Shown piece after piece: positions 3,807 to 27,210 of a stretch of 33,561 nt of DNA. A program made the translations under genes and the position numbers. Below the pieces are notes generated by a model that saw only the letters and a program-made list of their open reading frames with translations, did no database searches and had not been told where the DNA came from. The DNA comes from Cyanobacteria bacterium FACHB-DQ100 (GTDB lineage Bacteria > Cyanobacteriota > Cyanobacteriia > Leptolyngbyales > Leptolyngbyaceae): positions 1 through 33,561 of the forward strand of contig JACJNW010000005.1 of NCBI GenBank assembly GCA_014695195.1. Reading direction: 5' to 3'. Within the stretch, counting starts at the first letter, position 1; every line of letters starts with the position of its first letter.

Positions 3807-4098
3807 AACTAATCACCTGAATGAACATCTACCGAGTAGAGGCTTTTAGTAGTTGTTTGCCTCTATTGATTTATCAAATAATGCTTGTAGTTTTATACAG
3901 ATTAGAAGAATCGTTTGCCTATTTGCAGTGGAATTTCTGTTGTTATTGCTTCCTGTTACGCTCACTTTTCGTAATAAAAACGAGCTAATTTTGGCGATAA
4001 ACTAGTATCATATTTCCCTTTAAGACCCTCAGCGCAAAATGCAACACGAAGCGCTGGATGGATTGATACAGGTAAGACTTTGAAAAACTTTAAGTACG
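3807..4098. other. Intergenic region between divergent genes
   Basis: These 292 bp separate the minus-strand Mo-nitro_C gene and plus-strand tpsA. A 7-bp inverted repeat (TAGAGGC at 3837-3843, GCCTCTA at 3859-3865) is the only structure I noticed. The region is AT-rich and probably holds both promoters, but no convincing -35/-10 pair was found. Confidence 0.5.
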
Positions 4099-7227: not shown

Positions 7228-9772
7228 ATCTCGGATTAATTGGCTTGTTCTCCTCACAGCTGGCTGGATAGCTGCCTTTGAGTGCGTTCCGTTTGCAATT
7301 CGCGATTCTGTCAGTATTGCGGCTTCTGTTTCTTCTCCAGCCCCAAACGCCCAAGCTCTAACCCCAGAAGAACAAGGAAAAGCACTGTATGAAAATGGGC
7401 GGTTTAGTGAAGCAGTCACCGTTTTACAACAAGCAGTTCAACAGGCGCGATCGCGAGGTGACACCCTCAGGCAAGCGATCGCGCTGAGTAATTTGTCACT
7501 AGCATCTCAACAGCTCGGATTGTGGACCGAAGCTAATCAAGCTATCACAGAAAGTCTGAAACTCCTGCGTTCTACCCATCAACAAACTTCAGTGCTTGCT
7601 CAAGCGCTTGATATTCAAGGCCGTTTGCAGCTCGCGACTGGGCAAGCCGAGTCAGCCTTGGGAACTTGGCAGCAAGCAACGGCGCTCTACTCAAAAACAA
7701 ACGATCAGGCGGGTATTGTTCGTAGCCACCTTAATCAAGCACAGGCACTTCAAGCCCTAGGATTTCACCGTCGTGCACTGACAGTTTTGGAGAACTTACG
7801 ATCGACCCTCCAAAACCAACCTGCATCTTTGGTCAAAGTTGTAGGCTTACGAAGTTTTGGCGATGCGCTGTTACTCGTTGGAGAAACCGATGCAGCAAAT
7901 GCTGTGTTGCAACAAAGTTTGGAACTCGCCAAACAGCTTCAAGCCAGTGAAGAAACAGCGGCGGCGTTGTTAAGTTTAGGCAACGTTGCCCAAACCAAGC
8001 GAGACGCTCAAGCTGCTTTAGCGTTTTATCAACAAGCAGCAACTCGATCCGCGTCGCCCCTCACCAAAGTACAAGCACAACTCAATCAACTCAGTTTGCT
8101 GACTCATCCCAATCAGCGCGACAACATTCAACCCTTAGTGCGTCAAATTCAACCGCAACTGGCAACCTTGCCGCCGAGTCGAACCGTGATCGAGATGCAA
8201 ATTACCTTTGCTCAACTGCTGTTGAAGCTTCCGAGCTTTGATCGCACCGCCATTGCTCAACAGTTAGCCAAAGCGGTACAACAAGCTCGCGCCCTCAATG
8301 ATCGACGATCGCAATCCTTCGCCCTGGGAACGCTTGCTCATGTCTACGAACAAAATCGTCAATGGTCGATCGCGCAGGATTTAACGCAGCAAGCGCTGGA
8401 ATTAGCCGAAGCGATGCGGGCATCAGATATCGCCTACCGCTGGGAATGGCAATTAGGACGATTATTGAAAGCGCAAGGCAATTCTACAGGCGCGATCGCA
8501 GCTTACACTGGAGCCGTCAATACGTTAAAATCGCTACGCAAAGATCTAGTCGCCGTAAATCCGGAGATCCAGTTTTCTTTCCGAGAAAGCGTGGAACCAA
8601 TTTATCGGCAGTTGGTCGATTTGTTACTTCAGAAAACTGCAGCACCAAGTCAGGTTAAATTAACTCAAGCTCGCGATGTGATTGAATCACTGCAAGTTGC
8701 AGAACTTGAAAATTTTTTCCGGGCAGCGTGTCTAGATACGGTCGTGCAAGTGGATCAAGTCATTGACCAAGCGGATGCATCGGCGGCAGTCGTTTATCCG
8801 ATTATTCTGAGCGATCGCCTAGAGATCATCCTCAAACTACCGCGACAAGAATTACGGCACTACACGGTGTTAGTTCCGCAAGTGCAAGTTGAACAAACCC
8901 TCGAACAACTGCAGCAAAAACTCACAAAACCCTACACCCTGCAAGAAGTACAAACTCTATCACAACAGGTTTACAATTGGCTAATTCGCCCCGCAGAAGC
9001 AACGCTAACAGCAACGAAACCGAAAACATTAGTGTTTGTATTAGATGGAGCCCTGCGGAATATCCCAATGTCGGTGCTTCATGATGGGCAACAGTATTTA
9101 ATTCAAAAATATGGCGTTGCTCTAACACCAGGACTACAACTACTCAATCCACGATCGCTCAAACAAATCCAATTACGAACCCTCACCGCAGGGCTGACCG
9201 AATCGCGTCACGGCTTTGCACCGCTCAGTTTTGTGAGAAACGAAGTTGAAGAAATTCAATCAGAAGTGCCCAGTAAAGTATTGCTCAATCAGACCTTTAC
9301 AGAAAAACAACTGCAAGAGCAGATTAATGCTGCTCCGTTTCCGGTTGTGCATTTAGCGACGCATGGACAGTTTAGCTCGGATGCAGAGAAGACCTTTATT
9401 CTTGCGTGGGATCAACCGATTAAGGTGAACGACTTCAGTCGGTTGTTGCGGGTCAAGGAACAAACGGGAACTGGCGCAATCGAGCTTCTGGTTCTCAGTG
9501 CTTGCGAAACGGCGACGGGAGATAACCGGGCGGCGTTAGGGCTGGCTGGAGTGGCGATTCGGGCGGGGGCAAGAAGTACGATCGCGTCGCTCTGGTCACT
9601 GGATGATGAATCAACTGCATTATTTATGGGCGAGTTTTATCGAAATCTCACACAAACGACCACGACGAAAGCGGCTGCACTGCGAGACGCCCAACTCAAG
9701 CTGCTGCAGCACCCTCAGTATCAGCATCCCCGCTACTGGGCACCGTATGTTTTAGTAGGAAATTGGCTATAA
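7217..9772 (+). CDS. TPR-CHAT protein (caspase-like HetF-associated protease domain)
   Basis: An 852-residue protein with a hydrophobic N-terminus (about residues 8-24, probably an export signal or anchor), a long helical region of tetratricopeptide-type repeats (about 55-470), and a C-terminal CHAT domain (about 560-850). The CHAT cysteine-protease dyad is visible: His716 in HLATHGQ and Cys763 in LSACETATG, followed by GLAGVAIRAGARSTIASLWSLDD, typical of the family. The ATG at 7217 is chosen over one at 7166 because it puts the hydrophobic segment near the N-terminus; it overlaps the tpsA stop by 11 bp, implying translational coupling. TPR-CHAT genes commonly sit next to FHA-type exoproteins in cyanobacteria, so it may process or regulate the secreted partner. 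The substrate is unknown. Confidence 0.9.
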   Translation: MDSKSRINWLVLLTAGWIAAFECVPFAIRDSVSIAASVSSPAPNAQALTPEEQGKALYENGRFSEAVTVLQQAVQQARSRGDTLRQAIALSNLSLASQQLGLWTEANQAITESLKLLRSTHQQTSVLAQALDIQGRLQLATGQAESALGTWQQATALYSKTNDQAGIVRSHLNQAQALQALGFHRRALTVLENLRSTLQNQPASLVKVVGLRSFGDALLLVGETDAANAVLQQSLELAKQLQASEETAAALLSLGNVAQTKRDAQAALAFYQQAATRSASPLTKVQAQLNQLSLLTHPNQRDNIQPLVRQIQPQLATLPPSRTVIEMQITFAQLLLKLPSFDRTAIAQQLAKAVQQARALNDRRSQSFALGTLAHVYEQNRQWSIAQDLTQQALELAEAMRASDIAYRWEWQLGRLLKAQGNSTGAIAAYTGAVNTLKSLRKDLVAVNPEIQFSFRESVEPIYRQLVDLLLQKTAAPSQVKLTQARDVIESLQVAELENFFRAACLDTVVQVDQVIDQADASAAVVYPIILSDRLEIILKLPRQELRHYTVLVPQVQVEQTLEQLQQKLTKPYTLQEVQTLSQQVYNWLIRPAEATLTATKPKTLVFVLDGALRNIPMSVLHDGQQYLIQKYGVALTPGLQLLNPRSLKQIQLRTLTAGLTESRHGFAPLSFVRNEVEEIQSEVPSKVLLNQTFTEKQLQEQINAAPFPVVHLATHGQFSSDAEKTFILAWDQPIKVNDFSRLLRVKEQTGTGAIELLVLSACETATGDNRAALGLAGVAIRAGARSTIASLWSLDDESTALFMGEFYRNLTQTTTTKAAALRDAQLKLLQHPQYQHPRYWAPYVLVGNWL

Positions 9773-12600: not shown

Positions 12601-13332
12601 TCAGTTCATGACCTTGGAAAGATTTAAGGTTGCGTGTTTAAGCCAGTTGGAAAATAGTTCTATAAGAATTCTATTTCTTAGCTGAGCATCAAGTTCTGGC
12701 TGAATGATTTCTTCAACAAAAATCAAATGGGATTTTCCTAAAACAAGAATGGGTTTGAGAATTTGAGGTGGTTTTGAAGCAAAGACAGATGCCGCAATCG
12801 TTGAATTCAGATCAATACGACGTAAAAGTCCCTTATATCCTCCTGCTCGTCGAAGTTCCATATTTTGAATATATTGATGAGCAAGCTCATGAAAATTTAC
12901 TTCACCTTCTTGTGTTGCATAGAAGAGTTCTATTGCTAAATCTTCATCGTCTAGAACAATTTCATACATCACAACCTTGGCGTAATCGAGCTGATTTTTA
13001 GCAAAAAATGCTTCAACTTCGTTACCAAATAGATGCTCAGCTAACTTATCAGCAAGAACTTGAGTATGAACCAAGATTTCAAATTCATTTAACGATAAGC
13101 CTTGTTTTTTTAGCCATGTCAAAGTATCTTTTGAACGATGCAAATTGTTTTTCAAACGAATAGCATCCGCAGCCTGCTGAAGCTCTTCAGATTCAACTGT
13201 GATTCCGGCTTCTTCTGCGGCAGCCACGATCGCTTTGCGTTTTGCAATCTCTTCCAAAATCATTGGAATTTGACCTGAAAGCTTCACTTGATAAAGAACC
13301 TCTTCGGGAGAAACAGTCAACTCAGTAGACAT
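12601..13332 (-). CDS. SurA/parvulin-like peptidylprolyl isomerase, bacteriocin-locus type
   Basis: A 243-residue, mostly helical protein. The N-terminal half (about 20-100) resembles the helical SurA/PrsA chaperone arm. The second half (about 110-220; YAKVVMYEIVLDDEDLAIELFYATQEGEVNFHELAHQYI ... GGYKGLLRRIDL) matches the degenerate parvulin domain found in cyanobacterial bacteriocin loci. There it is annotated as a peptidylprolyl isomerase and sits next to HlyD and peptidase-ABC genes, as here. It lacks a signal peptide, so it would act in the cytoplasm, perhaps holding the precursor unfolded for export. HELAH occurs in this protein too, but in a parvulin helix context, so I do not read it as a zinc site. 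Spacing to the HlyD gene is 62 bp. Confidence 0.72.
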   Translation of the reverse strand: MSTELTVSPEEVLYQVKLSGQIPMILEEIAKRKAIVAAAEEAGITVESEELQQAADAIRLKNNLHRSKDTLTWLKKQGLSLNEFEILVHTQVLADKLAEHLFGNEVEAFFAKNQLDYAKVVMYEIVLDDEDLAIELFYATQEGEVNFHELAHQYIQNMELRRAGGYKGLLRRIDLNSTIAASVFASKPPQILKPILVLGKSHLIFVEEIIQPELDAQLRNRILIELFSNWLKHATLNLSKVMN

Positions 13333-13394
13333 AGCGCCTCCGGCTTTCGTAGAGCAAATCGAGTAAACATGTCGCGGTAGACAACCTAGCCCGT

Positions 13395-14825
13395 TTAAAG
13401 TTTGAAATCACCGTTTTGCAGCTTTCTAAATGGATCGAGAATAAAATCAATAATGCGGCGTTGCCGTGTAATCACTTCGGCTGTGGCAGATTGCCCTGGT
13501 GTTAAGACAATGTGCTGGTTTTGTGCCTGGATGTAGGTTTGGTCAAGCCTAATTTCTAACTCAAAGTTTTCAATTTCGCCCTGTGGGGTTCGTGTCTTTT
13601 TCGCATCGGGCGAAATCCAATGCAGATGGGCCGGTACAATACCGTAATCCTGGAATGGATAAGCATCAAACTTGAGCTTAACAGGCATTCCAATTTGCAG
13701 AAAGCCACTTTCTGAACTCGGCATCTGTGCCCGAAAGATCAGCATTGCACCCTTAGGAGCAAGCTGAGCAACGGCTTGTCCTGGTTGCAGCACCGCTCCA
13801 GGTTGTTGGATCGGAAGCTCAAAAATCGTTCCATTAACAGGCGCATGAATCGTTCGTTGTTGCAGTTGTAATTGTAGTGCCGCGATCGCTTGTCGAGTTT
13901 GAGAAATTTCGGCGCGTAGATCTGCCATTTGGGTTTGTAAATCCCTAGCCTGTTTCTGGCTCGCTAGTACTGCCAGTTTACCCGTCCGATCAACGCGCAA
14001 TTGAGCAGTCTCTTGTTTTGCTAGTTCTGATTGAGATTGTTCGATGTCTGCTCGCGCTTGTGCTAAGAGCCGTTGGCTCTCATCTGCCGTTCGTTGAGTT
14101 TCCACCACTTTGATTTCGGGCACAGCGCCAGCTTGCCATAGGTGACGATATCGCTGCACTTCATTCAGGTCTTTTGCCAAGCGAGACTGCCAAAGCTGAT
14201 AAGCGCGTTGATTCGCCGATATCTTACTTTTCACCTGAGCAATTTGCGCCTGTTGCTCAGAAACTTGTGCTTCACTTTGGAGTTGCTGAGTGCGGGTCGC
14301 GATCGCGAGTTGGTTAGCGGTTTGTTCAAGCTGAGTAAGGCGATTTAGTTGCCCCTCTAGTTTTGCCTGCGCCTGCTGCAAATCTGTCTTGGCTAATTCT
14401 GAGTCTAGTTCCATTAACGTTTGCCCAGCCTTGACAGTGCTGCCTTCTTTGACAGCGATCGCAACCACTTTTCCAGCAACTGGTGCGTCAATGCGGTAAA
14501 TTTTTCCCTGCGGCTCTAGTCGTCCTCGTGCGACGCCCGTTTCGTCTACTTGCGCTAACATCGCCCAGGGTAAGACAACTCCCGCGAACCCGACCAGCAA
14601 ATAGAGCAATCCACGGGTCCAAGCTCGCGGCAGTGTGTTGACTAGCTCTTGCGTAATAGAAGACCAATCGCCCATTGAAGACTGCACAGGAGATACGTCT
14701 TCAACCATTGGCAGATCGCTTCTGAGATTAGTTATAACTTGGTTTAGATCAGTCTCGCGCTTGTTTCGGGGGCGATGACCATTACGTTGGCCGAGTTGAT
14801 CTTCAGTACTAAATGGTGTTGGCAT
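13395..14825 (-). CDS. HlyD-family membrane fusion (adaptor) protein
   Basis: A 476-residue periplasmic adaptor that should link the inner-membrane ABC exporter to an outer-membrane channel. A cytoplasmic stretch (1-70) is followed by one membrane helix (72-91). Next come a biotinyl-lipoyl half-motif (GRLEPQGKIYRIDAPVAGKV ... VKAGQTLMELDS), a long alpha-helical hairpin rich in Gln and Ala (145-320), the second lipoyl half (TIHAPVNGTIFELPIQQPGAVLQPGQ) and a beta-barrel domain. Length and layout match type I secretion adaptors. It is 57 bp downstream of the exporter gene. No TolC-like gene is in the window; that partner is probably encoded elsewhere. Confidence 0.93.
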   Translation of the reverse strand: MPTPFSTEDQLGQRNGHRPRNKRETDLNQVITNLRSDLPMVEDVSPVQSSMGDWSSITQELVNTLPRAWTRGLLYLLVGFAGVVLPWAMLAQVDETGVARGRLEPQGKIYRIDAPVAGKVVAIAVKEGSTVKAGQTLMELDSELAKTDLQQAQAKLEGQLNRLTQLEQTANQLAIATRTQQLQSEAQVSEQQAQIAQVKSKISANQRAYQLWQSRLAKDLNEVQRYRHLWQAGAVPEIKVVETQRTADESQRLLAQARADIEQSQSELAKQETAQLRVDRTGKLAVLASQKQARDLQTQMADLRAEISQTRQAIAALQLQLQQRTIHAPVNGTIFELPIQQPGAVLQPGQAVAQLAPKGAMLIFRAQMPSSESGFLQIGMPVKLKFDAYPFQDYGIVPAHLHWISPDAKKTRTPQGEIENFELEIRLDQTYIQAQNQHIVLTPGQSATAEVITRQRRIIDFILDPFRKLQNGDFKL

Positions 14826-14882
14826 AGAACCGTGGTGATAAACGACAGTGAACGACAGGATTGCAATAGAAACGACATCTTG

Positions 14883-17657
14883 CTAGCCAACCGATGTTAA
14901 TTGCTGCTGATTGAGATAGAAGTATTGTCCTCGCCGTGCCATTAACTCGTCATGATTGCCGCTTTCGACAATAATGCCTCGATCAAGAACTAAAATCAGG
15001 TCTGCATTACGAATCGTAGACAGGCGGTGGGCAATCACGAGCGTTGTTCGGTCTTTCAAAATCGTGTTGAGGTTTGTTTGAATAATTCGCTCCGATTCAG
15101 CATCCAAATGACTAGTGGCTTCATCAAAAATCAAGAGGCGAGGATTGCCGAGCAAAGCACGCGCGATCGCAAGTCGTTGACGCTGTCCACCGGAAAGTAA
15201 TCCACCGCCCTCACCAATTTGCGTTTCATAGCCCATTGGCAGGGCTTCGATGAAGGAGTGGGCACCTGCTTGCTTCGCGGCTTCGATCACTTCTTCCAGT
15301 GATGCTTCAGGATGCCCAACGCTAATATTTTCCCGAATCGTGCCACCAAACAAAAAAGTATTTTGATCCACAACTCCGATCTGTTGTCTCAGCGATCGGA
15401 GTGCCAAATTATTAATGTCATAGCCGTCGATCAAAATTTTGCCTTGCGTTGCGGGATAAAGCCCTAAGAGCAGTTTCGCGATCGTGGTTTTACCTGAGCC
15501 ACTGCGTCCCACCAATGCCACCATCTGCCCTGGATGAACTGTAAAACTAACATTTTCTAAAACATTCACATTGCTCTCAGGGTGATAGCGAAACGTAACC
15601 TGGTCAAAGCAGATATGCCCATCTAGGCTGGGCAGAAATTGCCGCGTTTGTTGCTGATAGTCTTCTTCGGGTTCAGTGTCGATCACATCCTGAATCCGCT
15701 CAACCGCAATCAAGACTTCTTGGAACTGATTCCATAGAACACTCAATCGACGGAAGGGAGAAATGACGTTTCCGAGCAGCATATTGAAGGCGACAAGTTG
15801 CCCGATGGTCAATTCATTCTGAATCACCTGAGACGCACCAAACCAAAGCAACGCTGTTGTCAACGCTGTCTCGACAGTGCTGCTACAAATCTGAAGCGTA
15901 TTACTGATATTTTGACCGGAGAAATTCGTTTTGATTGATTTGCTAAATAGTTCCTCCCAATGCCAGCCTACTGTTTGTTCGATCGCCATACTCTTTACCG
16001 TATGAACACCAGTTAAAGCTTGAATTAAGTACTTTCCTTGGCTGGTGTTTGCATTAAAAATTTCGCGTGAGATTTGCTTGAGCAATGGTGTAGCGATCAG
16101 TGCAAGAAAAATAAAGGGCGGCACAATCGTCAGCGATAGTAACGCCATCTTCCAGCTATACCAAAACATTAAGCCAACATAAACGAAAACAGTCAGAAAA
16201 TCCAAAAATATCGAGAGTGAATCACCTGTGAGAAAACGTTGAATCTTGTGGTTTTCTTGTACACGGGAAACAATATCACCTACATAGCGAGATTCAAAAA
16301 ATCCCAACGGTAATCGAAATGTGTGTTTAATGAATCCAACAATCAATGCTGTATCAATTCGATTAGCAACATGACTCAACAGATACTGCCGCAATCCGCT
16401 CATTGCTACTCGGAAGAGCCCAAAGATGAGTAGCCCAATTCCAACCGCAGTCAGGGTCGTCGAACTACGCTGCACAACGACTCGATCAAGTAATAACTGA
16501 GTAAACATCGGGGTAACCAGGCCAAAAATTTGAATCACAATTGAGGCAATTAAGACTTCCAACAGCACGAGCCAATGCGGTTTTACGAGTTCGATAAATT
16601 GCCAGAGAGATTGGTTGGTTTCTGGAGTTTCCTTCAAAAAAGCTGTTGGCTGCAATAGCAAGGTATAGCCTGTCCAGCCTGCTTTAAACTGAGCAGGGGT
16701 GAGAGTTCGTTGACCGATTGCTGGGTCGCCAACCACCACATGCTTTCTTGTGATTTCGTAAACCACAATATAGTGTTTGCCTTCCCAATGCGCGATCGCA
16801 GGCAAGGATTGCTCCGCTAATTTGCTCAGTCCTGCTTTTACGGGTCGGGTAGAAAAGCCAATATTTTCTGCCGCTGCCGCTAAACTTTTTAGCGATGCGC
16901 CATTGCGATCGACATTTGAGATATCTCGCAATCGATTCACGCTAAACCGTTTTCCCCAGTAGCGACCAATCATCACTAAGCAAGCTGCTCCACAATCGGC
17001 TGCACTCTGTTGAGCAAAAAAAGGATAGCGCCGCGTTGCTCGCTGCCACCAATGTCCGAAACGCTGCATTGGACTGGGAAAGAAAGCCTTGCTGATTTTC
17101 GACTCCGTTTTACTAGCAGCAGTCGAAACAGAACACGGAATCAGTGATGAAGAATGGCGCAGAATTGGATGTTTACGGTTTCCCTCAGAATCGATTCGTT
17201 GCTCTGAAGACGCTTCACTTAACTTGGCAAGAATTAGCGAATCTCGCTGAACTGCTGCTTGGTATAACCGTGATCGCACTGTTGGATACCGATCAAGGAG
17301 GGATTGCAATGCCGCTATCGGCACAAAACAAAGTCCGACTTGCATAGAAGCCCTAGCAGTATAGGGCTGAAAAGAGGAGTCTGGGAAAAGCGTCAATTCA
17401 CCCAAAGATGCACCTGTCCCCAGGGAAACTAACAAGTTATTCGCGCGATCGAGAAGCCGCACTTTACCGTCTAATACAAGGTAAATTCCCGCCGGAGCAT
17501 CCAACGAATGCCAGAATTGTTTGCCTGGTTTCGGCTCCAAAATGTGAACGTGTTGCAGGAGAGTAGCCCATTCTGATTTAGAGAGTGGCTGCCCTAATAA
17601 TTGAGCAAGCTGCTCAAGGATTTGCGCCTGCCACGCAACGGAACTCTGTTTTACCAT
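14883..17657 (-). CDS. Peptidase-containing ABC exporter with N-terminal cNMP-binding-like domain
   Basis: A 924-residue bacteriocin exporter and leader peptidase. Residues 30-140 form a cyclic-nucleotide-binding-like jelly roll (GIYLVLDGKVRLLD, LGELTLF). Residues 210-335 are a C39 peptidase with catalytic Cys222 (SAADCGAACL), His295 (GKHYIVV) and Asp311 (GDP); Gln216/217 would form the oxyanion hole. About 350-640 is the six-helix membrane domain, and the rest is an ATPase: Walker A GRSGSGKTT (near 715), signature LSGGQRQR (near 820), Walker B LLIFDEATSHLD (near 840). All active residues are present. In the cNMP pocket, Glu87 is kept but Gln97 aligns where CRP has its phosphate-binding Arg, so nucleotide binding is doubtful. 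It should cut precursors 1 and 2 after GG. The HTH gene ends just 20 bp upstream. Confidence 0.95.
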   Translation of the reverse strand: MVKQSSVAWQAQILEQLAQLLGQPLSKSEWATLLQHVHILEPKPGKQFWHSLDAPAGIYLVLDGKVRLLDRANNLLVSLGTGASLGELTLFPDSSFQPYTARASMQVGLCFVPIAALQSLLDRYPTVRSRLYQAAVQRDSLILAKLSEASSEQRIDSEGNRKHPILRHSSSLIPCSVSTAASKTESKISKAFFPSPMQRFGHWWQRATRRYPFFAQQSAADCGAACLVMIGRYWGKRFSVNRLRDISNVDRNGASLKSLAAAAENIGFSTRPVKAGLSKLAEQSLPAIAHWEGKHYIVVYEITRKHVVVGDPAIGQRTLTPAQFKAGWTGYTLLLQPTAFLKETPETNQSLWQFIELVKPHWLVLLEVLIASIVIQIFGLVTPMFTQLLLDRVVVQRSSTTLTAVGIGLLIFGLFRVAMSGLRQYLLSHVANRIDTALIVGFIKHTFRLPLGFFESRYVGDIVSRVQENHKIQRFLTGDSLSIFLDFLTVFVYVGLMFWYSWKMALLSLTIVPPFIFLALIATPLLKQISREIFNANTSQGKYLIQALTGVHTVKSMAIEQTVGWHWEELFSKSIKTNFSGQNISNTLQICSSTVETALTTALLWFGASQVIQNELTIGQLVAFNMLLGNVISPFRRLSVLWNQFQEVLIAVERIQDVIDTEPEEDYQQQTRQFLPSLDGHICFDQVTFRYHPESNVNVLENVSFTVHPGQMVALVGRSGSGKTTIAKLLLGLYPATQGKILIDGYDINNLALRSLRQQIGVVDQNTFLFGGTIRENISVGHPEASLEEVIEAAKQAGAHSFIEALPMGYETQIGEGGGLLSGGQRQRLAIARALLGNPRLLIFDEATSHLDAESERIIQTNLNTILKDRTTLVIAHRLSTIRNADLILVLDRGIIVESGNHDELMARRGQYFYLNQQQLTSVG

Positions 17658-18515: not shown

Positions 18516-20957
18516 TTACGTCGAGATAGCAAGTGTGTATTGAGTGCGACCATCACTTAGATTGAACGGAAAGACCTTCACAAGATATTCATCAGGAGCT
18601 AGACCTGTTAGGCTGATCGATTCATTTGCCACGCTTCCTAACTGAGAAACTGCAATAATCTCACTTGGATCAATAACGCCATTTTTATCAACATCTCGAA
18701 TCACTTGCAAATCAACATCCATTGTTATGTCTGAAAGCGTTAGATCAAGATTGCCGCTGTTGATATTGAGCCTAAACAAATCGGCTTCATCGTTGAAATT
18801 GAATATATTTCCTAGTTTTTTTCCTGCCAATGGAAGATCAAACTCAAGATCAAGTTTGAAATTACCAATGCTTTCTCTGAGTGTTGTGTTGCCGTTAAGT
18901 AGGCTGAGATCAAGAGATCGCGCATTGCTGACTGTGTTGCCAGAATCCGTAGGTAACATTCCTAATTGATCCTCAGACAAGGTTGAAACCTGTTTCACAA
19001 AGTTGGCATATAGAGATAGGAAAATGTCATTGTTGAGATTACCATCCGTTCTAATCTCGTAATAATGCTGGACAATCTCTGCCTGTTGCTCACGATTGAA
19101 GCTGAATAAACTTTGACCCGCATTCATTCGCTTTACAAGTTCCGTTGCACCACCATAGTCATAACCGGACTGATTTGGTTGTCCAATGCCAGGTGGATAG
19201 GTTCCAGGAATGCGATCGTCGTGCTGACCGACTAGTGCTTCTGGAATATAAACTGCACCATCGTGTTGATATTGCCAAACATGGGCTAATTCATGAATTA
19301 AAGTATCCGGGCTAATGCCACCCCAAGAGTTAATGGTATTGAGGCTAGTAAAGGGTGCATCGTTAGTAATAAAACTTCTAGCCTTCACCAAAAACGATGC
19401 TTCATCGATTCGCACTAAGTCATAGTTAATTGAATTGCCAAAAACACTTTTGGCTCGCTCAATTTCTTCACTGGTTAATGCGCGAGTGTTGAATTTTCTC
19501 CAATCATAGTATGTTTCAAGAAGCTCTGGAATAGCAGCAATTTCTGCGTAATCAATTAAAATGCGACCAGCAGTTTTTGCTGCCTTCTCAAAATCTCCTG
19601 TTCCGACTGCTTCCAGTAACTCTACGTAATCGCTGCCTAGTTTCTTCAATTTTTTAGGTGTTTTTGTCACCCAATCAACAGTTCGCTCGAAGGCACCTGT
19701 TAGTTTACTATCCGCTTGTTTGGCAATCCAAGTTGCACCTTTTTTCAATCCCTTTCCAATATCTTTAATGCCATCCCAAATGTCTCCAGGGCTGGGAAGA
19801 TCCACACCGAAAAGGGCTGGGCGTTCAACGCTATTGAAGTATCCACCTTCACTAATCGGAGTCGAGTAGGAATTAGCAATAAATTGGAGATCTGCGATCG
19901 CAGATGTTTTAATGGCTCGATCAACAGCAGTTGAGGGATTTAGCAATCCTGCTCCTGTTTCCGAGTCCCATCCTGGTGTATTCAAATCTGTTGCTGTGGA
20001 TTCAAGAATATCGATCACTTGATGGTATTGCAGAGACGGGTTTGCTTGCCAAATGTTTGCAATGGTTCCTGTGACTTCAGCCGCTGCAATCGAGGTTCCC
20101 TCAACCGCATCAAATCGATTATCAGCAATAGACAGTAATGAATTGTTGTTTGCGCTGCCATACGCAACTAAGCTAAGACCATCTCCATAGCTTGAATAGA
20201 AGGCTCGATTGTGACCAAGGGCTGCCCCCACAGTGATAATGTTGTCAAACTCTTGAGCGGCTTGCCCAAGGACAGACATTGTTCCCCCGGTGTTGCCGGA
20301 GGCTACCACCACCAGAACCCCGTTCTCGTGTGCGTATCGAAGAGCATCGTGTTCTTGGGGGGTTAAAGCATGGCGGGTGCTTTGAGTGCCATCAGGATTA
20401 GTTTGAGCTAGATCAAAGCTAAGATTAACTACTGCGTGTGAACTGTTAGTGGCTTTTGCTGTATCTACAAACTCATTCAATGATTTTGCCCATTGACCTG
20501 ATCCAACTGCACGACTGAGCCAAGTTCGTGAACGATCGCTAGAATTTGATCTGCTCTCTGCAACAGTCGTAATAACGTCAAAAACGCGTGTGCCGTGATC
20601 ACTTTCATTCGGTGAAACAAAGGGATTATTATCCCCATCAATAAAGTCTCGTCCGATCAAAAGACGCGAATTGTCGATTTTTGGATGGTTGGCGTTAAAT
20701 CCTGTATCGATAATGCCAATTAAATGACTCGAAGTGCCTGAATCAGAATGGTCAATTGGTTGAGCAGGACAACGAGATTTGGAGGACTCAGACCAAGATG
20801 AACTTGATCGCAGCATTGTTCTGTTTGCTGATATTGGCTCATGCACTTGCATTCCACTGTCGGAAAATTGCTGAATCTCAGTGCTTAAGCTTGTACCATT
20901 GTCAGACAATCTATTTAACGAATCAAAACCAGCTTTAGAGCCTGATGAGAATAGCAT
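18516..20957 (-). CDS. S8 (subtilisin-like) protease with HExxH, EF-hand-like and PPC-type regions
   Basis: An 813-residue multidomain protein. Residues 75-345 are a subtilisin-like domain with the full catalytic set: Asp84 (IIDTG), His121 (DHGTRV), Asn222 (ASGNTGG) and Ser289 (EGTSIAA). A helical linker (385-490) is followed by a region resembling DUF4157/eCIS-core domains (about 495-590), with HELAH at 555-559 (ISPDTLIHELAHVWQYQ), a zinc-metallopeptidase-type motif. The tail (about 690-813) holds DVDKNGVIDPSE, an EF-hand-type calcium loop, within a PPC-like beta domain (DADLFRLNI ... SGNLDLTLSD). No signal peptide is seen, so export by a non-Sec route or a cytoplasmic role is possible. AAGGA lies 8-9 bp before the ATG. 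It lies upstream of the bacteriocin operon on the same strand; a link is unproved. Confidence 0.88.
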   Translation of the reverse strand: MLFSSGSKAGFDSLNRLSDNGTSLSTEIQQFSDSGMQVHEPISANRTMLRSSSSWSESSKSRCPAQPIDHSDSGTSSHLIGIIDTGFNANHPKIDNSRLLIGRDFIDGDNNPFVSPNESDHGTRVFDVITTVAESRSNSSDRSRTWLSRAVGSGQWAKSLNEFVDTAKATNSSHAVVNLSFDLAQTNPDGTQSTRHALTPQEHDALRYAHENGVLVVVASGNTGGTMSVLGQAAQEFDNIITVGAALGHNRAFYSSYGDGLSLVAYGSANNNSLLSIADNRFDAVEGTSIAAAEVTGTIANIWQANPSLQYHQVIDILESTATDLNTPGWDSETGAGLLNPSTAVDRAIKTSAIADLQFIANSYSTPISEGGYFNSVERPALFGVDLPSPGDIWDGIKDIGKGLKKGATWIAKQADSKLTGAFERTVDWVTKTPKKLKKLGSDYVELLEAVGTGDFEKAAKTAGRILIDYAEIAAIPELLETYYDWRKFNTRALTSEEIERAKSVFGNSINYDLVRIDEASFLVKARSFITNDAPFTSLNTINSWGGISPDTLIHELAHVWQYQHDGAVYIPEALVGQHDDRIPGTYPPGIGQPNQSGYDYGGATELVKRMNAGQSLFSFNREQQAEIVQHYYEIRTDGNLNNDIFLSLYANFVKQVSTLSEDQLGMLPTDSGNTVSNARSLDLSLLNGNTTLRESIGNFKLDLEFDLPLAGKKLGNIFNFNDEADLFRLNINSGNLDLTLSDITMDVDLQVIRDVDKNGVIDPSEIIAVSQLGSVANESISLTGLAPDEYLVKVFPFNLSDGRTQYTLAIST

Positions 20958-21303: not shown

Positions 21304-22059
21304 TTACTGTTTTGCAGTGCAGCAATCTACGATCGGAGCACCTGCGATCGCACCCAATCCAGCAGACTGCAATAAATCTGTCCAATCTTGGGCCAACGTT
21401 GAATCTTTGGGCTTTTGGCGACGCAATTGAGCTAATGTTGTCACCGCATCGTACCAAATGCCATTTGCTGCGTAGCGCTGAACTTGCTCACGCGAAAGAA
21501 CGGATTGACGCGAAGCATCGGGTCTGCGTTCGATCCAACCATCTACAAACATAGGATTACTCGGTGTGCAGTAGATCAGAAAATACCAGTGATAGAGTTT
21601 GCCTACTTCCAACGGCGAAACCGTGTTAGGTAAGGTTACGCTGACGATGCCTGGAGTAGTTCCTGATTGAGTCAGAGCCGTTTGATAGAGATACTTGCCC
21701 TGTTCATCCTGCAACACAAACTCCGTGGCTAAATTGCTTGTGAGCGGATACGGAACATAAAACCAAAAGGTCGGTCGATCGCTAACCGTCAATGCCCAAA
21801 CTGGAGTGACATCCAAGCGATCAGGCGTCTTAGGTAAAACGGGCACTAATGCCGTTAATTGAGACGAAGCCACAGGACATTTGCCTCGACTCGCCCCGCC
21901 CTGCGGATGACCGCTCGGTGCCCCTCGACGTGGCAAAGGAGGGGGAACAAAGCGGGCAGCAGGCGCGGAGTTCACCGGAAAAGCCGTGAACAATCCGCTA
22001 ATTAGAAGCGCGATCGTTGAGCAACTGAGTGCTTGTTTTTGAAAAAAATTGTGTCTCAT
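21304..22059 (-). CDS. DUF928 domain protein, secreted
   Basis: A 251-residue protein with a clear signal peptide (residues 1-31, ending VNSAPA), a proline/glycine-rich linker and the DUF928 core (LTALVPVLPKTPDRLDVTPVWALTVS ... PTFWFYVPY; GKLYHWYFLIYCTPSNPMFVDGWIERR). Its function is not known; members are cyanobacterial and commonly found beside CHASE2, DUF1822 and FHA-type genes. Its start lies 3 bp after the CHAT-CHASE2 stop, which shows a shared transcript. It ends in two adjacent cysteines (DCCTAKQ). It should act in the periplasm or at the cell surface, where it could meet the CHASE2 sensor domain. Confidence 0.9.
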   Translation of the reverse strand: MRHNFFQKQALSCSTIALLISGLFTAFPVNSAPAARFVPPPLPRRGAPSGHPQGGASRGKCPVASSQLTALVPVLPKTPDRLDVTPVWALTVSDRPTFWFYVPYPLTSNLATEFVLQDEQGKYLYQTALTQSGTTPGIVSVTLPNTVSPLEVGKLYHWYFLIYCTPSNPMFVDGWIERRPDASRQSVLSREQVQRYAANGIWYDAVTTLAQLRRQKPKDSTLAQDWTDLLQSAGLGAIAGAPIVDCCTAKQ

Positions 22060-22062
22060 AAC

Positions 22063-24438
22063 TCATGTCCTAGAAATTTTTGTGATGGTTTTTGTGATTC
22101 CGCCTGAGAGACCTAATGCAAGCAAAGCTGGAACGAGTGGCACCCATCCCCCCTGCAGGAATAGCAGGAAGCAAGCTGTTCCTAATAGCGCGATCGCTGC
22201 GAGGGCTGCCAAACTTAAATAATGCGGTTTTCTGAGCCACCACGCTAACCCCCCACCAACAATTGCCCAACACCAAATCCAGAGCGTGTCCTGCCAAAAC
22301 GACCACATCCACAGCAAAGGTCGTCGATCGAGAACTGCACTCAAAATTTGGCTCACCATTTGAGCTTGTAGCAGCACCCCAGGCGTTTTCTGGTGCAGCG
22401 AAGTACCGGTACTGTAGGGAGTTGACCAGAAATCCCCGAAACTCGGAGCCGTCACGCCAATTAAAACAATTCGATCTTTTAGAAAGGTGTGATCAAGCTG
22501 ATTGTTTAGTAATTGCGTTAACGTGACCTGCGGTACGCTGTCTTGTAATGACTTGTAATTCCGGTAGTTCAGAAGAATTTGGTGCCCCCAAGAGTCAATG
22601 GTTTGATAGCCTCCCCTATGATTTTCAAGGGGCTGAAACGTTACGGAACCCAGTTGTAATGCTCCTTCTGGTGTAAATTGTGGAGTAATTCCCTGAGTGA
22701 TGAGATACCGGAATGCAAGTTGAACACTAAACGAATACGAGGTAGAACACGCGGAACCAGGATACGGTTCCATTCCTAATAAATGACGACGCAGAATGCC
22801 ATCCGGATCGGTCAAAAAATCGCTAAAGCCCCATTGCTCAGGTGGTACTTCCGGGGGCGGTGCAACGCCTGGATCATTGCTCGTGGAATCGGTTGCTTTG
22901 CAAACGGTAATGAGACGCGAATTTTGCCGAAGCCGATCGCTGAGCGATTTATTTTTTGTTGCGCTGCTGCGATAGATGTCGAGACCGACCGCAATCGGCT
23001 GTTGTTGCTCTAACTTGTCTAAAAGTTTCAATAAGGTCTGATCAGAGAGCGATCCTTGTCTTGGTTCGGGCTGTGCTTGAATGTCTGCTTCGGTTAGTGT
23101 CACCACTAAAAGACGAGAATCTGGTACTTCCTGGGAGCGCGATCGCAGGAATTGATCGAAGGCTTGTAGCTCTAGAGGTTGCATCCAGCCCATATGTCGT
23201 CCGCCGATCGTTAAGCCTGCTGCTGCTATGCTGCTGAAGAAAATCGCCGCCAATCCCCGTCGAATTTTGCTGCGTTTATGAGACTGGGAGGCTAATGGTG
23301 CAATCACCGTATCTTGCTCTTGTTGAGCGATTCCTTCAGTGTCTCCTTTCTTGACACTAAGCGTACTGTTACACCAATCTTGCCAAGTTTGTGGAACTTC
23401 GGCTGGATTTTGAAAAATGACGGGCAACCAGGTTGCATAGGGAAACTCCGGTTCCAAGGTTTCTAGTTGTTCTCGTGCCTGCCGAACTGCACTGTAGAGC
23501 GGTTGACCTGCGGCAAAGGCACTTAAGAGGTGCTTTAAGAACTCCTGAGCCACTCGATCGGGAACTGGCTCCCGCATCACAATGATTTGGGGAATGTGCA
23601 AATCAGTAAGCTGGCGAGCTAAACCAATTCCATCGCAGGAGTTAAAAATTGCCAGCTTTAATCCATGACGAATCGCAACTTTAAGTGCGTATTTAAGTTC
23701 ACTCAACACCAGTCGATCGCTAGCATTAATCATCAATCGACCGACTTCAGATTCCGTGGAGCTATGTCCCGCAAAAAATAAAATATCCCAAGCCTGCCTC
23801 CACAACTGCTCTCCTAACTCCTGTCGTTGGGGTTCTACAAGCAGTTGAACGTGAGCTTGAGGAAGTTGTTCTAATAAGGCGCGATCGCGCTGCACATTAA
23901 TGCCCACGCTACTACCGAGAATTGCCAAAACGTTGACGGTTGGTTTTGCCGTTTCGGTGCGCTCCACACGCTCATAGGCTGCCGTACTTAGGGCGATCTC
24001 TGCAGTGGGATAGCGGTCTAACACGTCCCACAAATGCCATGGTAATCGGCTCAGCTGCGGACTGCTAGTTTGAATTAGAACACGAATCTTCTCTGCCGGG
24101 TCGAGCTTTTCAAACCAGCGATCGCGCAAGGGGCGGAACACAGCAGAATTTAACCACGCATTCAACTGTTCAATTAATCGATGAGCGGCATGACGGCAGT
24201 CTTCTACTCTGGAAACATGGGTCACTTCATCCTGCAAAAACTCAATTCGCCACCGCTGCCCTAATCGGCGATAGGCGAGCTGCCAATCGTGATACTGCTG
24301 CGGCAAACTTGGCGCAGGTGGCAAAGTTCCGGGTAGCTCGATCGCAGGTTGCTTCCCTTCGTCCCCAATTTGCAGGATCACTGGAAACCCACGGTCAAAA
24401 CTTCCTTCTCCAATCTTTAAGACAACTAACTTACTCAC
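22063..24438 (-). CDS. CHAT-CHASE2 membrane protein (protease-like and sensor domains)
   Basis: A 791-residue protein combining a cytoplasmic CHAT domain and an extracytoplasmic CHASE2 sensor. Residues 115-350 form the CHAT domain, with His225 (FFAGHSST) and Cys268 (IFNSCDGIGLA) as the caspase-like dyad. A membrane helix (about 395-413) leads to CHASE2 (about 420-700; LELQAFDQFLRSR, LVVTLTEADI, VALDIYRS-like LGLDIYRSSAT, RIVLIGVTAPS). Three membrane helices close the protein (about 705-785). CHASE2 usually feeds kinases, cyclases or related outputs; here the output would be proteolysis or CHAT-mediated binding. It sits 81 bp after DUF1822 and 3 bp before DUF928 in one operon headed by a sigma factor. 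The ligand and substrate are unknown. Confidence 0.92.
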   Translation of the reverse strand: MSKLVVLKIGEGSFDRGFPVILQIGDEGKQPAIELPGTLPPAPSLPQQYHDWQLAYRRLGQRWRIEFLQDEVTHVSRVEDCRHAAHRLIEQLNAWLNSAVFRPLRDRWFEKLDPAEKIRVLIQTSSPQLSRLPWHLWDVLDRYPTAEIALSTAAYERVERTETAKPTVNVLAILGSSVGINVQRDRALLEQLPQAHVQLLVEPQRQELGEQLWRQAWDILFFAGHSSTESEVGRLMINASDRLVLSELKYALKVAIRHGLKLAIFNSCDGIGLARQLTDLHIPQIIVMREPVPDRVAQEFLKHLLSAFAAGQPLYSAVRQAREQLETLEPEFPYATWLPVIFQNPAEVPQTWQDWCNSTLSVKKGDTEGIAQQEQDTVIAPLASQSHKRSKIRRGLAAIFFSSIAAAGLTIGGRHMGWMQPLELQAFDQFLRSRSQEVPDSRLLVVTLTEADIQAQPEPRQGSLSDQTLLKLLDKLEQQQPIAVGLDIYRSSATKNKSLSDRLRQNSRLITVCKATDSTSNDPGVAPPPEVPPEQWGFSDFLTDPDGILRRHLLGMEPYPGSACSTSYSFSVQLAFRYLITQGITPQFTPEGALQLGSVTFQPLENHRGGYQTIDSWGHQILLNYRNYKSLQDSVPQVTLTQLLNNQLDHTFLKDRIVLIGVTAPSFGDFWSTPYSTGTSLHQKTPGVLLQAQMVSQILSAVLDRRPLLWMWSFWQDTLWIWCWAIVGGGLAWWLRKPHYLSLAALAAIALLGTACFLLFLQGGWVPLVPALLALGLSGGITKTITKISRT

Positions 24439-24519
24439 AGTAGCTTAACGTTTAACGTGTTAGAGTTTGTGAAATAAATCCATTAGTGCCGTGTTACTCC
24501 TAGCATTGGTATCGTCGAG

Positions 24520-25482
24520 CTAGATTACAAAACTTTCCACATAGCTCGCATTACCCAAAGTAATGTTGACACTAAAACGTTCGCCAAAGCTCCCCATTAA
24601 CTGTTTTTGAATATAATCATCAGTGCTTCTTGCCTGAACGCTTTGCTGTATTTGTCCCTCTTCTAACAAAATCGTTAGTTCTAGACCTTCTGGTAAATAA
24701 ACCTGATCACCAATCGGGTGAACTTGTAGCACAACACGAACATGGGAAGCCTGGGACGAGACATCCTCTTCGGGAATCAGTGACACGAGAAGCGCGACGG
24801 TCTGCGGTTCCGGCGAGCCGTCTAGTTGAATCAGTTTGGCACCACGAGTTTGAGTACTAGGGTCAGATAAATCGGTGTCCGACTCTGCGCTTCTAAAGCT
24901 GTACGCTGGACTCAAAGCTTGAGCGAATAAAAGCATTTCTGCGGCTTGCCAGCCTGCCTCAAAGTATTCATCAAGCCATTGTCTTAGCGTCACGATCGCT
25001 TGATTCACGGGAGCGAGCGAATGGAGATAGCTTGGCAATTCGTCGAGCGATCGCAGCTGACGCAGCATTAACCTTCCCGTTTGTAGCGTGGGACTAAACC
25101 CTAGTAAAGTCGCTTCTGTGAGCGATTCATTCAACTGAACAGCAACGAACCCGATGCGATCGCTTTGAGCTTCGACTGGAACTGGGCAAGTTTGAGCATT
25201 GGGTAAAATGGGGCGGCATTCGAGCTTGCCTCGGTGCCGGATATTTAGATCTGCCACATCCAGAAGTATTTGCATGACGGGATTTGCGCTATGGCTCGCT
25301 TCCCAATCTGTTTCAATCCCAATACACTGCAAGTAATAATTCACAGCCTGTACTGCCAATGTATTCAAATAAACCTGCTTGGCTTTTTGCCCGTCCGTGT
25401 ACTGGCGGCGAAACTGCTCTGCTTGTTGATGCACCCTAGCAGCTAAGGGAACTGTAAATACCGATGAAATAAGGTCGCTCAT
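24520..25482 (-). CDS. DUF1822 family protein
   Basis: A 320-residue soluble protein, recognised as DUF1822 by its opening (IPLTxxAHxxAxQF-like VPLAARVHQQAEQFRRQ), the YLNTLAVxAVNYYLQCxGIETDWExS segment and the later GWQAAEMLL stretch. It has no signal peptide or membrane helix. The function is not established; members usually lie directly after a sigma-factor gene and before CHASE2/CHAT genes, as here (31 bp after the sigma gene). That fixed placement makes it a candidate partner of the sigma factor (an anti-sigma-like or adaptor role), which is inference only. Confidence 0.88.
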   Translation of the reverse strand: MSDLISSVFTVPLAARVHQQAEQFRRQYTDGQKAKQVYLNTLAVQAVNYYLQCIGIETDWEASHSANPVMQILLDVADLNIRHRGKLECRPILPNAQTCPVPVEAQSDRIGFVAVQLNESLTEATLLGFSPTLQTGRLMLRQLRSLDELPSYLHSLAPVNQAIVTLRQWLDEYFEAGWQAAEMLLFAQALSPAYSFRSAESDTDLSDPSTQTRGAKLIQLDGSPEPQTVALLVSLIPEEDVSSQASHVRVVLQVHPIGDQVYLPEGLELTILLEEGQIQQSVQARSTDDYIQKQLMGSFGERFSVNITLGNASYVESFVI

Positions 25483-25513
25483 AAAAATTGCTCACACTGG
25501 AATAAAAGTAGGG

Positions 25514-26179
25514 TCACGATCGAAGATACTCTTTAATTTTTGGTGCTAATTCTTTACAAGCGCGTTGATAGAAATTGCTCAAAGTTGGAATCTTGACGCC
25601 AAAGGATGCCGAAAGCTGTTCCCAGGATTCTCCCGCTAAGCGGCGAAGCGCAAGGATTTGAAAATTCACTTCAGAGCAGCTTTTCATCTGCTTGTGCTTA
25701 AAGCAATTTTCAGGATCTTCTTCTAAACACTGTTTAACAATGTCAGACATTGAAAGTGTCTCAGCGGAAACATTCGCCTTATCTAATTCATTGATATCTG
25801 CGACATAGGTAACTCGTGTGTTTGTACTGGAATAGTATTTAGTTCGTGCATCAATGAAACGCTTATTTAGTAAAAAGTTCACCCAAGTCATCACCTTACC
25901 TTTGGTCGAGTCGTAGCGATCAATAGAGCGACACATCTGTAGCCACAGTTCTTGTAAAGCTTCTTGGTAAAGATAAACATAGGTTTCTGCAGGTAATTGT
26001 CCACGAGGGCAGTAAAGTTTACCTGACTGTTGAATCAAGCGAATCAGCCGACCCAAAGCGGTTTGCCGCTCGTGGCTGTGGGGTGCATATCGTTGAGCTT
26101 CCATGACCAGCCGTTCTAGTTGTTCATCCAGTTCGTCCATTGGGGAGTTGAAATTGAGCGATCGGTCACTCACTATCAT
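25514..26179 (-). CDS. Sigma-70-family (ECF-like) RNA polymerase sigma factor
   Basis: A 221-residue protein that should direct RNA polymerase to a special set of promoters. Region 2-like sequence spans about 60-125 (YLYQEALQELWLQMCRSIDRYDSTKGKVMTWVNFLLNKRFID), and a region 4-like helix-turn-helix spans about 175-215 (ILALRRLAGESWEQLSASFGVKIPTLSNFYQRAC). Region 3 is short, so it belongs with ECF-type factors. It is the first gene of an operon with DUF1822, CHAT-CHASE2 and DUF928. Its own control by one of these products, and its targets (perhaps the TpsA/CHAT genes), are inferences. No distinctive promoter was found in the 200 bp upstream (26180-26381); it holds only a weak inverted repeat (AGCACT...AGTGCT near 26270). 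Confidence 0.85.
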   Translation of the reverse strand: MIVSDRSLNFNSPMDELDEQLERLVMEAQRYAPHSHERQTALGRLIRLIQQSGKLYCPRGQLPAETYVYLYQEALQELWLQMCRSIDRYDSTKGKVMTWVNFLLNKRFIDARTKYYSSTNTRVTYVADINELDKANVSAETLSMSDIVKQCLEEDPENCFKHKQMKSCSEVNFQILALRRLAGESWEQLSASFGVKIPTLSNFYQRACKELAPKIKEYLRS

Positions 26180-26381: not shown

Positions 26382-27210
26382 GGTATTATCAACTTAACCC
26401 GAATGTAGAATAATCGGACTGATTTAACTCGGATCACCTCTTCTCATGTACTCCCGTCATCGCTTTCCCGGCGAAATCATCAGTTCCTGTGTGTGGCTTT
26501 ACTACACTTTTCCTCTGAGTTACCGGGATATCGAGAAGATGATGTTGTACCGAGGCATCGAGGTGACGTACGAATCGATTCGGGAATGGTGCCAGAAATT
26601 CGGACAGCAATACGCGAATCAGGTGCGGCGCAAGCGTCCTTACATTACAGACAAATGGCATCTTGACGAAATGGTAGTCACAATCAAGAAGCAGCAATAC
26701 TACCTGTGGCGGGCAGTAGACAGTGAAGGGAACGTGCTGGATGTCTTATTACAACGCCATCGAGGCACCGAAGCAGCGAAGCGATTTTTCCGTAAGCTGC
26801 TGAAGAAACAAGGGTTTGTGCCACGGGTGATAGTCACCGACAAGCTCAAGAGTTACGAAGCGGCAAAGAAACAGGTGATGCCGAGCGTAGAACACCGACA
26901 ACACAAAGAGTTGAATAATCGGGCAGAAAATTCGCATCAACCGACAAGAATGCGAGAGCGACGAATGCGGCGATTTAAATCTGTGGGGCAAGCGCAACGA
27001 TTCCTTTCTGCCTTTGACCCGATTCGCTCCCACTTTCACCCGAAGCAACATGACCTGAGTGCAAAACGATATCGAGAACAGATGCGCCAACGCTTTGAGG
27101 ATTGGCGAGAAATCACTGGTGTGAAAGATGCTGCGTAAATTGGAGCGATGACCGCGATCGAGAAATTATTGTGCCTAATTTTGATTGTCATCGGTTAAGT
27201 TGACAATGCC
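26382..27210 (+). mobile_element. Intact IS6-family-type insertion sequence, 829 bp
   Basis: Inverted ends GGTATTATCAACTTAACC (26382-26399) and GGTTAAGTTGACAATGCC (27193-27210) frame a full transposase gene. The size fits the IS6 family. The flanking 8 bp (TTCGACAG and GTTGCTGG) differ, so there is no target duplication; IS6-type cointegrate recombination or later deletion could explain this. A further element end lies 99 bp to the right. Confidence 0.9.
26446..27138 (+). CDS. IS6-family transposase, full length
   Basis: A 230-residue DDE transposase that should cut and join the ends of its own element. The N-terminal helix-turn-helix is present (LSYRDIEKMMLYRGIEVTYESIREW, about 24-48). The catalytic residues are Asp74 (DKWHLDEM), Asp132 (VTDKLKSYEAAK) and Glu161 (NNRAENSH), aligned by comparison with the IS6 pattern NTDK ... 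NNxIE. An arginine-rich stretch (RMRERRMRRFKS) follows, as is usual. This copy is intact and so is the likely source of activity for the defective relatives in the window (329-1053 and 3075-3428). Confidence 0.93.
   Translation: MYSRHRFPGEIISSCVWLYYTFPLSYRDIEKMMLYRGIEVTYESIREWCQKFGQQYANQVRRKRPYITDKWHLDEMVVTIKKQQYYLWRAVDSEGNVLDVLLQRHRGTEAAKRFFRKLLKKQGFVPRVIVTDKLKSYEAAKKQVMPSVEHRQHKELNNRAENSHQPTRMRERRMRRFKSVGQAQRFLSAFDPIRSHFHPKQHDLSAKRYREQMRQRFEDWREITGVKDAA

Follow-up and report, generated by a model that had tools for sequence, protein, structure and literature searches.

The window analysed here, by which we mean the whole stretch of 33,561 nucleotides from contig JACJNW010000005.1 of Cyanobacteria bacterium FACHB-DQ100, contains an operon of four genes that run on the minus strand from 26179 down to 21304 and are separated by gaps of 31, 81, and 3 bp. 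They encode a protein resembling extracytoplasmic function (ECF) sigma factors, a DUF1822 protein, a membrane protein that joins a CHAT domain to a CHASE2 domain, and a DUF928 protein:

25514-26179, minus strand: ECF-like sigma factor gene, 221 amino acids, ATG start (open reading frame, profile matches)
24520-25482, minus strand: DUF1822 protein, 320 amino acids, no transmembrane segment (open reading frame, Pfam, hydropathy)
22063-24438, minus strand: CHAT-CHASE2 membrane protein, 791 amino acids, GTG start (open reading frame, Pfam, hydropathy)
21304-22059, minus strand: DUF928 protein, 251 amino acids, with an N-terminal signal-like segment (open reading frame, Pfam, hydropathy)

The original prediction for this DNA had described a tight four-gene operon with these gaps, and the open reading frames and Pfam matches bear it out, with the sigma factor call the weaker part. 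The interval that it gave for the operon (22063-26179) leaves out the DUF928 gene.

The CHAT-CHASE2 protein matches both of its Pfam families above cut-off, CHAT at residues 94-327 (59.0 bits) and CHASE2 at residues 408-729 (230.8 bits). Hydropathy places one transmembrane segment at 395-413; from residue 743 on, further hydrophobic segments overlap one another. A stretch that appears basic by eye precedes the first transmembrane segment, which fits a cytoplasmic CHAT domain. The two domains are predicted to lie on opposite sides of the membrane, CHAT being cytoplasmic and CHASE2 periplasmic, as had been proposed. The catalytic His225/Cys268 dyad of the CHAT domain, which had been described as apparently complete, is indeed kept throughout the family: G224, H225, N266, S267, and C268 do not vary among the 73 relatives that share the N-terminal region and CHAT domain (EACC2-CHAT), and H225 and C268 were also found in all 28 members of an earlier, smaller set. 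The label EACC2 rests on the description of such proteins in PMC8195603, not on a profile. In a two-sequence AlphaFold2 model (mean predicted local distance difference test score, pLDDT, 65.5), an alpha+beta N-terminal part is followed by a CHAT fold. The N-terminal part (residues ~1-111) shows three strands followed by three helices at 2-111, with block pLDDT values of 71-88 except at residues 51-80. A fold search with this model returned 17 matches below E 0.001, all with query TM-scores of at most 0.42: five SAVED-CHAT chains, nine separases, one ciliary entry, the anti-sigma factor DdvA, and PDB 7zoq, a CRISPR effector with a caspase regulator that we take to be Craspase. By sequence, the CHAT region reaches only SAVED-CHAT, at E 0.015. 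The C-terminal module varies among the relatives. CHASE2 is present in 42 of the 73 distinct full-length EACC2-CHAT proteins, and nSTAND1-WD40, periplasmic-binding, and pentapeptide modules were found above the Pfam cut-off in others, with PsbP-like and HEAT-like modules below it.

Some other identities were considered and set aside. HetF is likewise described as a cyanobacterial CHAT-type protein (PMC8406250), but the window protein is not HetF, as it scores only 20.5 bits with NCBIfam NF045509 against a cut-off of 1200. A phage origin was rejected because a single PHROG sigma family was matched and the CHAT alignment found no relative in a scan of viral contigs. Membership in a defence system was likewise rejected, none of the four operon genes having a PADLOC match at E 0.01.

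Judged from its sequence, the product of the first gene is sigma-like and divergent, and it reaches no curated cut-off. Pfam Sigma70_r2 falls short of its cut-off of 24 bits, scoring 23.3 (E 5.4e-5), and Pfam region 4 has no match; E-values of 1e-7 to 2e-4 were obtained with three NCBIfam sigma models, none of which reaches its cut-off. NCBIfam sigma70-ECF covers residues 71-212 (E 8.9e-5, 22.2 bits against a cut-off of 42.9). The protein also matches one PHROG sigma family at E 6e-7, and a profile of its family reaches the solved structures of SigK and RpoE/SigE at E 0.001-0.002. No transmembrane segment was seen by hydropathy. Because its closest relatives align only from residue 13-16 of the window protein, the true start may be the ATG at 26140, which would give 208 amino acids. 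The best match in the window's own genome family is 44% identical.

The original prediction of a soluble DUF1822 protein and a secreted DUF928 protein agrees with what we found. DUF1822 scores 206.8 bits in Pfam, above cut-off, and has no transmembrane segment by hydropathy. It has no TPR match in Pfam and no match in the PHROG and PADLOC searches. DUF928 scores 191.6 bits, also above cut-off, and its hydrophobic segment at residues 11-29 is signal-like. Some longer DUF1822 proteins show repeat-like inserts by eye. The longer DUF1822 genes are preceded by another kind of sigma-like gene; a match to sigma region 2 or 4 was seen in 7 of 10 scanned neighbours, in one case slightly below cut-off.

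Is this arrangement of genes conserved? Among 386 genomes of the phylum, the sigma family is found in 70 (E <=1e-10), the EACC2-CHAT region in 94 (E <=1e-40), and DUF1822 in 240, of which 227 are above cut-off; since the searches score few candidates per genome, these counts are lower bounds, and all counts given here cover related sequences. The CHAT family is present in 68 of the 70 genomes that carry the sigma family, compared with 26 of the 316 others. Gene order was surveyed in 133 stretches, namely the window and our loci from L039 onward, without L001-L038, L070 (a duplicate of L046), L080-L093, and two 20-base stretches. The loci were hand-picked from DUF1822 matches (40, and a further 18 usable ones), with 14 from the window's genome and 60 sigma-family matches with E <=1.4e-44, the contig-edge match G159:C141 being left out. 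Of 83 loci anchored on the sigma gene, 63 have DUF1822 immediately after it, 3 have it one gene away, and 4 have it elsewhere on the same strand, so that a same-strand DUF1822 gene occurs in 70 of 83. Such conservation is what the original prediction had counted on. At a threshold of E 1e-20, 18 of the 42 genomes in the window's own family show a sigma match, as does 1 of 7 others in the genus; DUF1822 lies within the short stretch at 25 of 29 sigma loci of this family, the window included. By these sequence comparisons the module is conserved in order and patchy in presence, and its association is beyond chance.

DUF1822 is absent from the stretch in 13 of the 83 sigma loci, 12 of which come from a single genome family (f7). 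Other members of f7 carry a TPR-CHAT-type gene between sigma and DUF1822 (L044, L112, L136), as if the operon had come apart there. The loci L129-L135, L137, and L139-L141 hold a sigma gene of the same family with no DUF1822 in the stretch, and several of these genomes have a DUF1822-CHAT-CHASE2-DUF928 set elsewhere (L045-L048, L050, L052, L110).

An EACC2-CHAT gene follows within two genes of sigma-DUF1822 in 48 of the 63 direct pairs. The other 15 are diverse. Double trypsin-like domains come next in L063, L152, and L157; an M48 peptidase comes next in L161 and as the third gene in L146; five pairs have no co-directional next gene (L167, L169, L171, L178, L181); an ABC ATPase follows in L186, a gene of no family in L071, and one with weak matches only in L183. 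In L160 and L177 the gene that follows was outside the domain scan. EACC2-CHAT lies further along the same stretch in L146 and L157 and ~10 kb away in the genome of L063, which suggests that the trypsin-like and M48 peptidases are mostly additions rather than replacements; it was not found in the stretches of L161 and L152, the latter of which reaches a contig end. The comparison across loci shows sigma and DUF1822 as the constant core of the module and the sensor as its variable part.

The same comparison shows that DUF928 belongs with the CHASE2 subtype. It occurs within two genes after EACC2-CHAT in 35 of 40 CHASE2-type loci (all except L057, L127, L138, L143, and L187) and in 0 of 27 other loci, counts that leave out two CHASE2-type and four other proteins at stretch edges. 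One of the proteins counted as other among the 73, L128, is a truncated copy of the CHASE2-type L051. The subtype is also often accompanied by another, ATHG/SAC-type CHAT protein, which is encoded in the same stretch at 26 of 42 CHASE2-type loci and at 2 of 31 others, one of which is a cut-off CHASE2-type copy. TPRs are present in six of the seven scanned proteins of this second type (the window's, L044, L053, L166, L098, and L099), and the seventh, L097, has a two-partner secretion (TPS) domain in their place. In the window, the gene for it lies 11.5 kb away from the operon and is preceded by one for a TPS exoprotein. Elsewhere in the window's genome (C44, C10, and C4), genes for CHASE2, DUF928, and the second type of CHAT protein are clustered without sigma or EACC2. 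In C44 (G000:C44, L097; locus 4375-8298), a single protein combines TPS secretion and CHAT domains, and its gene is next to DUF928 and CHASE2 genes; in C10 and C4 (L098, L099) TPR-CHAT, DUF928, and CHASE2 genes stand together. A further EACC2-CHAT-CHASE2 and DUF928 set of this genome (G000:C37:171413-176983, L094) has a full DUF1822 gene, together with a sigma-like gene, a 190 amino acid piece of DUF1822, and a 479 amino acid CHAT gene; it is possibly a partly decayed duplication.

The operon is real and conserved, and it is a member of a kind of system described in 2021. The authors of that study (Kaur et al., eLife 2021; PMC8195603) report EACC2-caspase proteins with a constant N-terminus and variable C-termini, including CHASE2 and STAND, encoded close to ECF sigma and DUF1822 genes. 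In their proposal a stimulus activates the peptidase, after which the sigma factor alters transcription. The window operon shares with these systems an EACC2-like N-terminus joined to CHAT, a variable C-terminal module, and sigma and DUF1822 genes alongside, the sigma factor being ECF-like and divergent; we judge its membership by architecture, not by accession. The original prediction had stated that no description of such a switch was known, which does not hold in view of this nearly identical proposal. DUF928 has 0 occurrences in the main text of PMC8195603. DUF1822 is called a TPR protein there, in contrast to the window's DUF1822, which lacks a Pfam TPR match and whose poor model shows a beta-rich C-terminal portion. 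The open-licence literature yielded no experimental test of DUF1822 or EACC2-CHAT proteins, and no paper joining DUF928 to the EACC2-CHAT, sigma, and DUF1822 system. A NOSP7 gene cluster with CHASE2, DUF928, and WD40, for which a role in sensing outside signals was inferred, is reported in PMC5587647, which also cites a DUF928 protein that responds to acid stress. The window operon shares CHASE2 and DUF928 with this cluster; CHAT and DUF1822 do not occur in the text of PMC5587647, in which sigma was not searched for.

The parallel to Craspase drawn in the original prediction is supported by PMC10028731. In this type III-E CRISPR system, Csx30 binds and inhibits CASP-sigma, and the TPR-CHAT protein Csx29 cuts Csx30. 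Common to both would be a CHAT protease tied to an ECF sigma factor through an inhibitor, a role that DUF1822 may play here. Craspase is RNA-guided through Cas7-11, whereas the window operon has a membrane sensor instead. No Cas family was found in the 20 of the window's 27 open reading frames of at least 120 amino acids that the domain scan covered. Three 38-base direct repeats at the contig end (window 110-293; spacing 70 and 76 bases), which look like the edge of a CRISPR array, are more than 20 kb from the operon.

Upstream of part of the relatives' sigma genes we found a promoter-like motif, TTTTGTAA-N16/17-CGTAAAA, in some cases with small variations (L061-L064, L153, L157, L159, L160, L167-L169, L171, L172, L174, L177, L178). 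Because the motif was derived from these genes, the sites upstream of them are not independent. Across the 386 genomes, sigma carriers hold 39 sites in 22 of 70 genomes, against 10 for the reversed pattern, and non-carriers hold 28 in 25 of 316, against 43. Thirteen carrier genomes, which were picked for the sigma family and most of which had already shown the motif, contain 24 sites and none of the reversed pattern. Half of these sites (12 of 24) precede sigma-DUF1822. Among the remaining 12, three (L214, L221, L222) have no downstream gene or meet a contig end, and nine precede genes for a TPS exoprotein (L213), a subtilase (L216, whose gene starts 57 bp after the site), a trypsin-like protease (L223), RTX-plus-CAP proteins (L218, L219), M50-like peptidases (L215, L217), a pilin-like protein (L220), and a 150 amino acid protein that is followed by EACC2-CHAT (L224). 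A position weight matrix (PWM), built from 16 of the sigma-upstream sites, scores at 12 bits in 27 of 83 sigma upstreams, compared with 21 of 983 other genes and 6 of 83 on the opposite strand; at 14 bits, 11 of the 983 control genes score. A stricter form of the motif gave 2 sites in 1 genome, and 1 reversed, among 291 genomes of the class. These sites suggest that in the relatives the sigma factor probably targets its own operon and secreted-protein genes (TPS exoproteins, subtilases, trypsin-like proteases).

Our preferred reading, which we hold as possible while leaning slightly towards doubt, is that the operon is a CHASE2/DUF928 subtype of a widespread cyanobacterial protease-to-sigma system in which a sensor-gated CHAT protease frees the sigma factor through DUF1822. 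DUF1822 would bind and hold the sigma factor in an anti-sigma-like manner; DUF928 and CHASE2 would sense the state of the envelope or the outside and activate CHAT; CHAT would cut DUF1822, for which the best candidate position follows the conserved Arg197 in a stretch undefined in the model; and the freed sigma factor would transcribe its target genes. As the constant and soluble neighbour of the sigma gene, DUF1822 is the obvious candidate for the substrate, and its cutting by CHAT would be the likeliest single route. Separase-type CHAT relatives cleave after arginine. The conserved Phe-Arg at DUF1822 residues 196-197 falls within a low-confidence part of the model (155-212), and of the 72 CHAT-linked rows in our alignment (109 rows of 112 matches, short and identical ones being left out), 68 have Arg or Lys at this position. 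We regard Arg197 as a candidate cleavage site only. In partial distance correlations over 46 operons, the highest value is that of sigma and DUF1822 (0.46; 5-95% of subsamples, 0.40-0.52), followed by sigma and CHAT (0.36; 0.24-0.46). The original prediction is supported in part, its claim to novelty aside: in the conserved module, the intact dyad, the predicted placing of protease and sensor, the Craspase parallel, and sigma-DUF1822 as the most constant and best co-evolving pair.

Several results weigh against this reading. The correlation between DUF1822 and CHAT is the lowest of the three (0.19; 0.12-0.28), which tells mildly against it. Arginine is also present at the candidate site in 22 of 37 rows with no nearby CHAT gene (e.g. 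L167, L169, L171, L178, L181), so the Phe-Arg may be structural. With a mean pLDDT of 53, the model of DUF1822 is of low quality (residues 155-212 below 50; beta-rich from 212 on), and a fold search with it gave nothing below E 0.001. To these are added the sigma loci from which DUF1822 is absent, and the promoter motif, which the window operon lacks (best PWM score -4.2) and of which the window's genome has 0 exact sites (1 reversed) and 1 site of a looser pattern (5 reversed). Over the whole window, four PWM matches exceed 8 bits, the best 14.7 at 33440 on the minus strand, and none of them is less than 300 bp before a co-directional listed gene. The possible targets are therefore drawn from relatives only.

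A fuller version of the protease switch strikes us as doubtful when taken as a whole. CHAT would read the envelope via CHASE2 and the secreted DUF928, cut DUF1822 at the Phe-Arg, and thereby let the sigma factor turn on a secreted or surface programme that includes proteases; the general design would be a sigma-DUF1822 core with interchangeable sensors and, at some loci, added trypsin-like or M48 peptidases.

Alternatively, CHAT could be its own substrate, with a cut for instance in the linker that precedes the transmembrane segment, and the sigma factor could receive its signal from the released cytosolic EACC2-CHAT fragment rather than from a cut DUF1822. Of the readings considered here, it comes closest to PMC8195603, which proposes autopeptidase activation, and it agrees with a correlation that is higher for sigma and CHAT than for DUF1822 and CHAT. 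The linker (~353-394), however, is not conserved in the 42 CHASE2-type proteins, with window residues 361-380 mostly opposite gaps, and in L062, L064, L096, and L159 the EACC2-CHAT region is C-terminal and has no long tail, so that a linker cut there would yield a different product. We consider self-cleavage of this kind unlikely.

The constancy of H225 and C268 in all 73 relatives, as expected for catalysis, argues against membrane sequestration without proteolysis, in which CHAT-CHASE2 would hold sigma or sigma-DUF1822 until a CHASE2 signal released it by a change of shape. This possibility, which seems rather improbable to us, draws on the match of the CHAT model to the transmembrane anti-sigma factor DdvA (8rot), the weakest of the 17 fold matches (E 1.3e-4, TM-score 0.42). 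DdvA is the cognate anti-sigma factor of the ECF factor DdvS (PMC4374960), and so is a membrane protein controlling an ECF sigma factor with a region resembling the CHAT model, linked to it by this weak fold match only.

Equally improbable is co-transcription with no direct switch, in which sigma-DUF1822 would form one unit and CHAT-CHASE2-DUF928 would be the cargo of that or another sigma factor. In its favour are the 13 sigma genes that are apart from DUF1822, the TPR-CHAT-type gene that lies between the two in related genomes, and the motif site of L224 before the 150 amino acid gene and EACC2-CHAT; the genome-level co-occurrence (68 of 70) and the operon order kept in 48 of 63 pairs speak against it. 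Finally, a conflict or cell-death effector, in which a triggered CHAT cuts many cell proteins and the sigma factor merely boosts the system, would fit the patchy presence of the module and the discussion of EACC2-caspase proteins among apoptosis- and immunity-like systems in PMC8195603, but is very improbable given the lack of PADLOC matches, the largely secreted products of motif-bearing genes in relatives, and the 5 of 63 sigma-DUF1822 pairs that have no co-directional next gene.

The remainder of the window includes the following features:

402-989: IS6-type (DDE_Tnp_IS240) transposase gene
1259-2974, minus strand: ShlB transporter
4099-7227, plus strand: TPS exoprotein
7166-9772, plus strand: TPR-CHAT protein with an N-terminal hydrophobic segment, overlapping the TPS exoprotein gene
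18516-20957, minus strand: subtilase (Peptidase_S8), 813 amino acids, the next gene downstream of the operon (open reading frame, Pfam)
26446-27138, plus strand: IS6-type (DDE_Tnp_IS240) transposase gene, beginning 267 bp upstream of the sigma gene

The genes for ShlB, the TPS exoprotein, and TPR-CHAT (1259-9772) make up a two-partner secretion cluster that includes a second CHAT protein. Beside the operon (12601-17657) are a SurA-like protein below the Pfam cut-off, a HlyD-family protein, and an ABC exporter with C39 peptidase and cyclic-nucleotide-binding domains. The transposase gene at 26446-27138 may have altered the region upstream of the sigma gene. The subtilase is possibly of a target class of the sigma factor, and the TPS exoprotein and TPR-CHAT protein (4099-9772) are possibly an exported arm of the system, in either case through a presumed link to the operon. 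By analogy with the relatives, a fair guess for the targets of the window's sigma factor would be secreted or surface genes, some of them of the same classes as the operon's neighbours in the window.

What we did not find in print, and contribute here, is the link of DUF928 to the CHASE2 subtype, the frequent presence of a second CHAT protein nearby, and the promoter-like motif with candidate targets in relatives, in addition to sigma-DUF1822 as the constant core. Of the 386 genomes, 94 carry the CHAT family and 70 the sigma family. If the preferred reading of a CHAT protease that frees a sigma factor through DUF1822 is true, caspase-type control of sigma factors without a guide RNA would be common in cyanobacteria, and two widespread uncharacterised families would gain a role.

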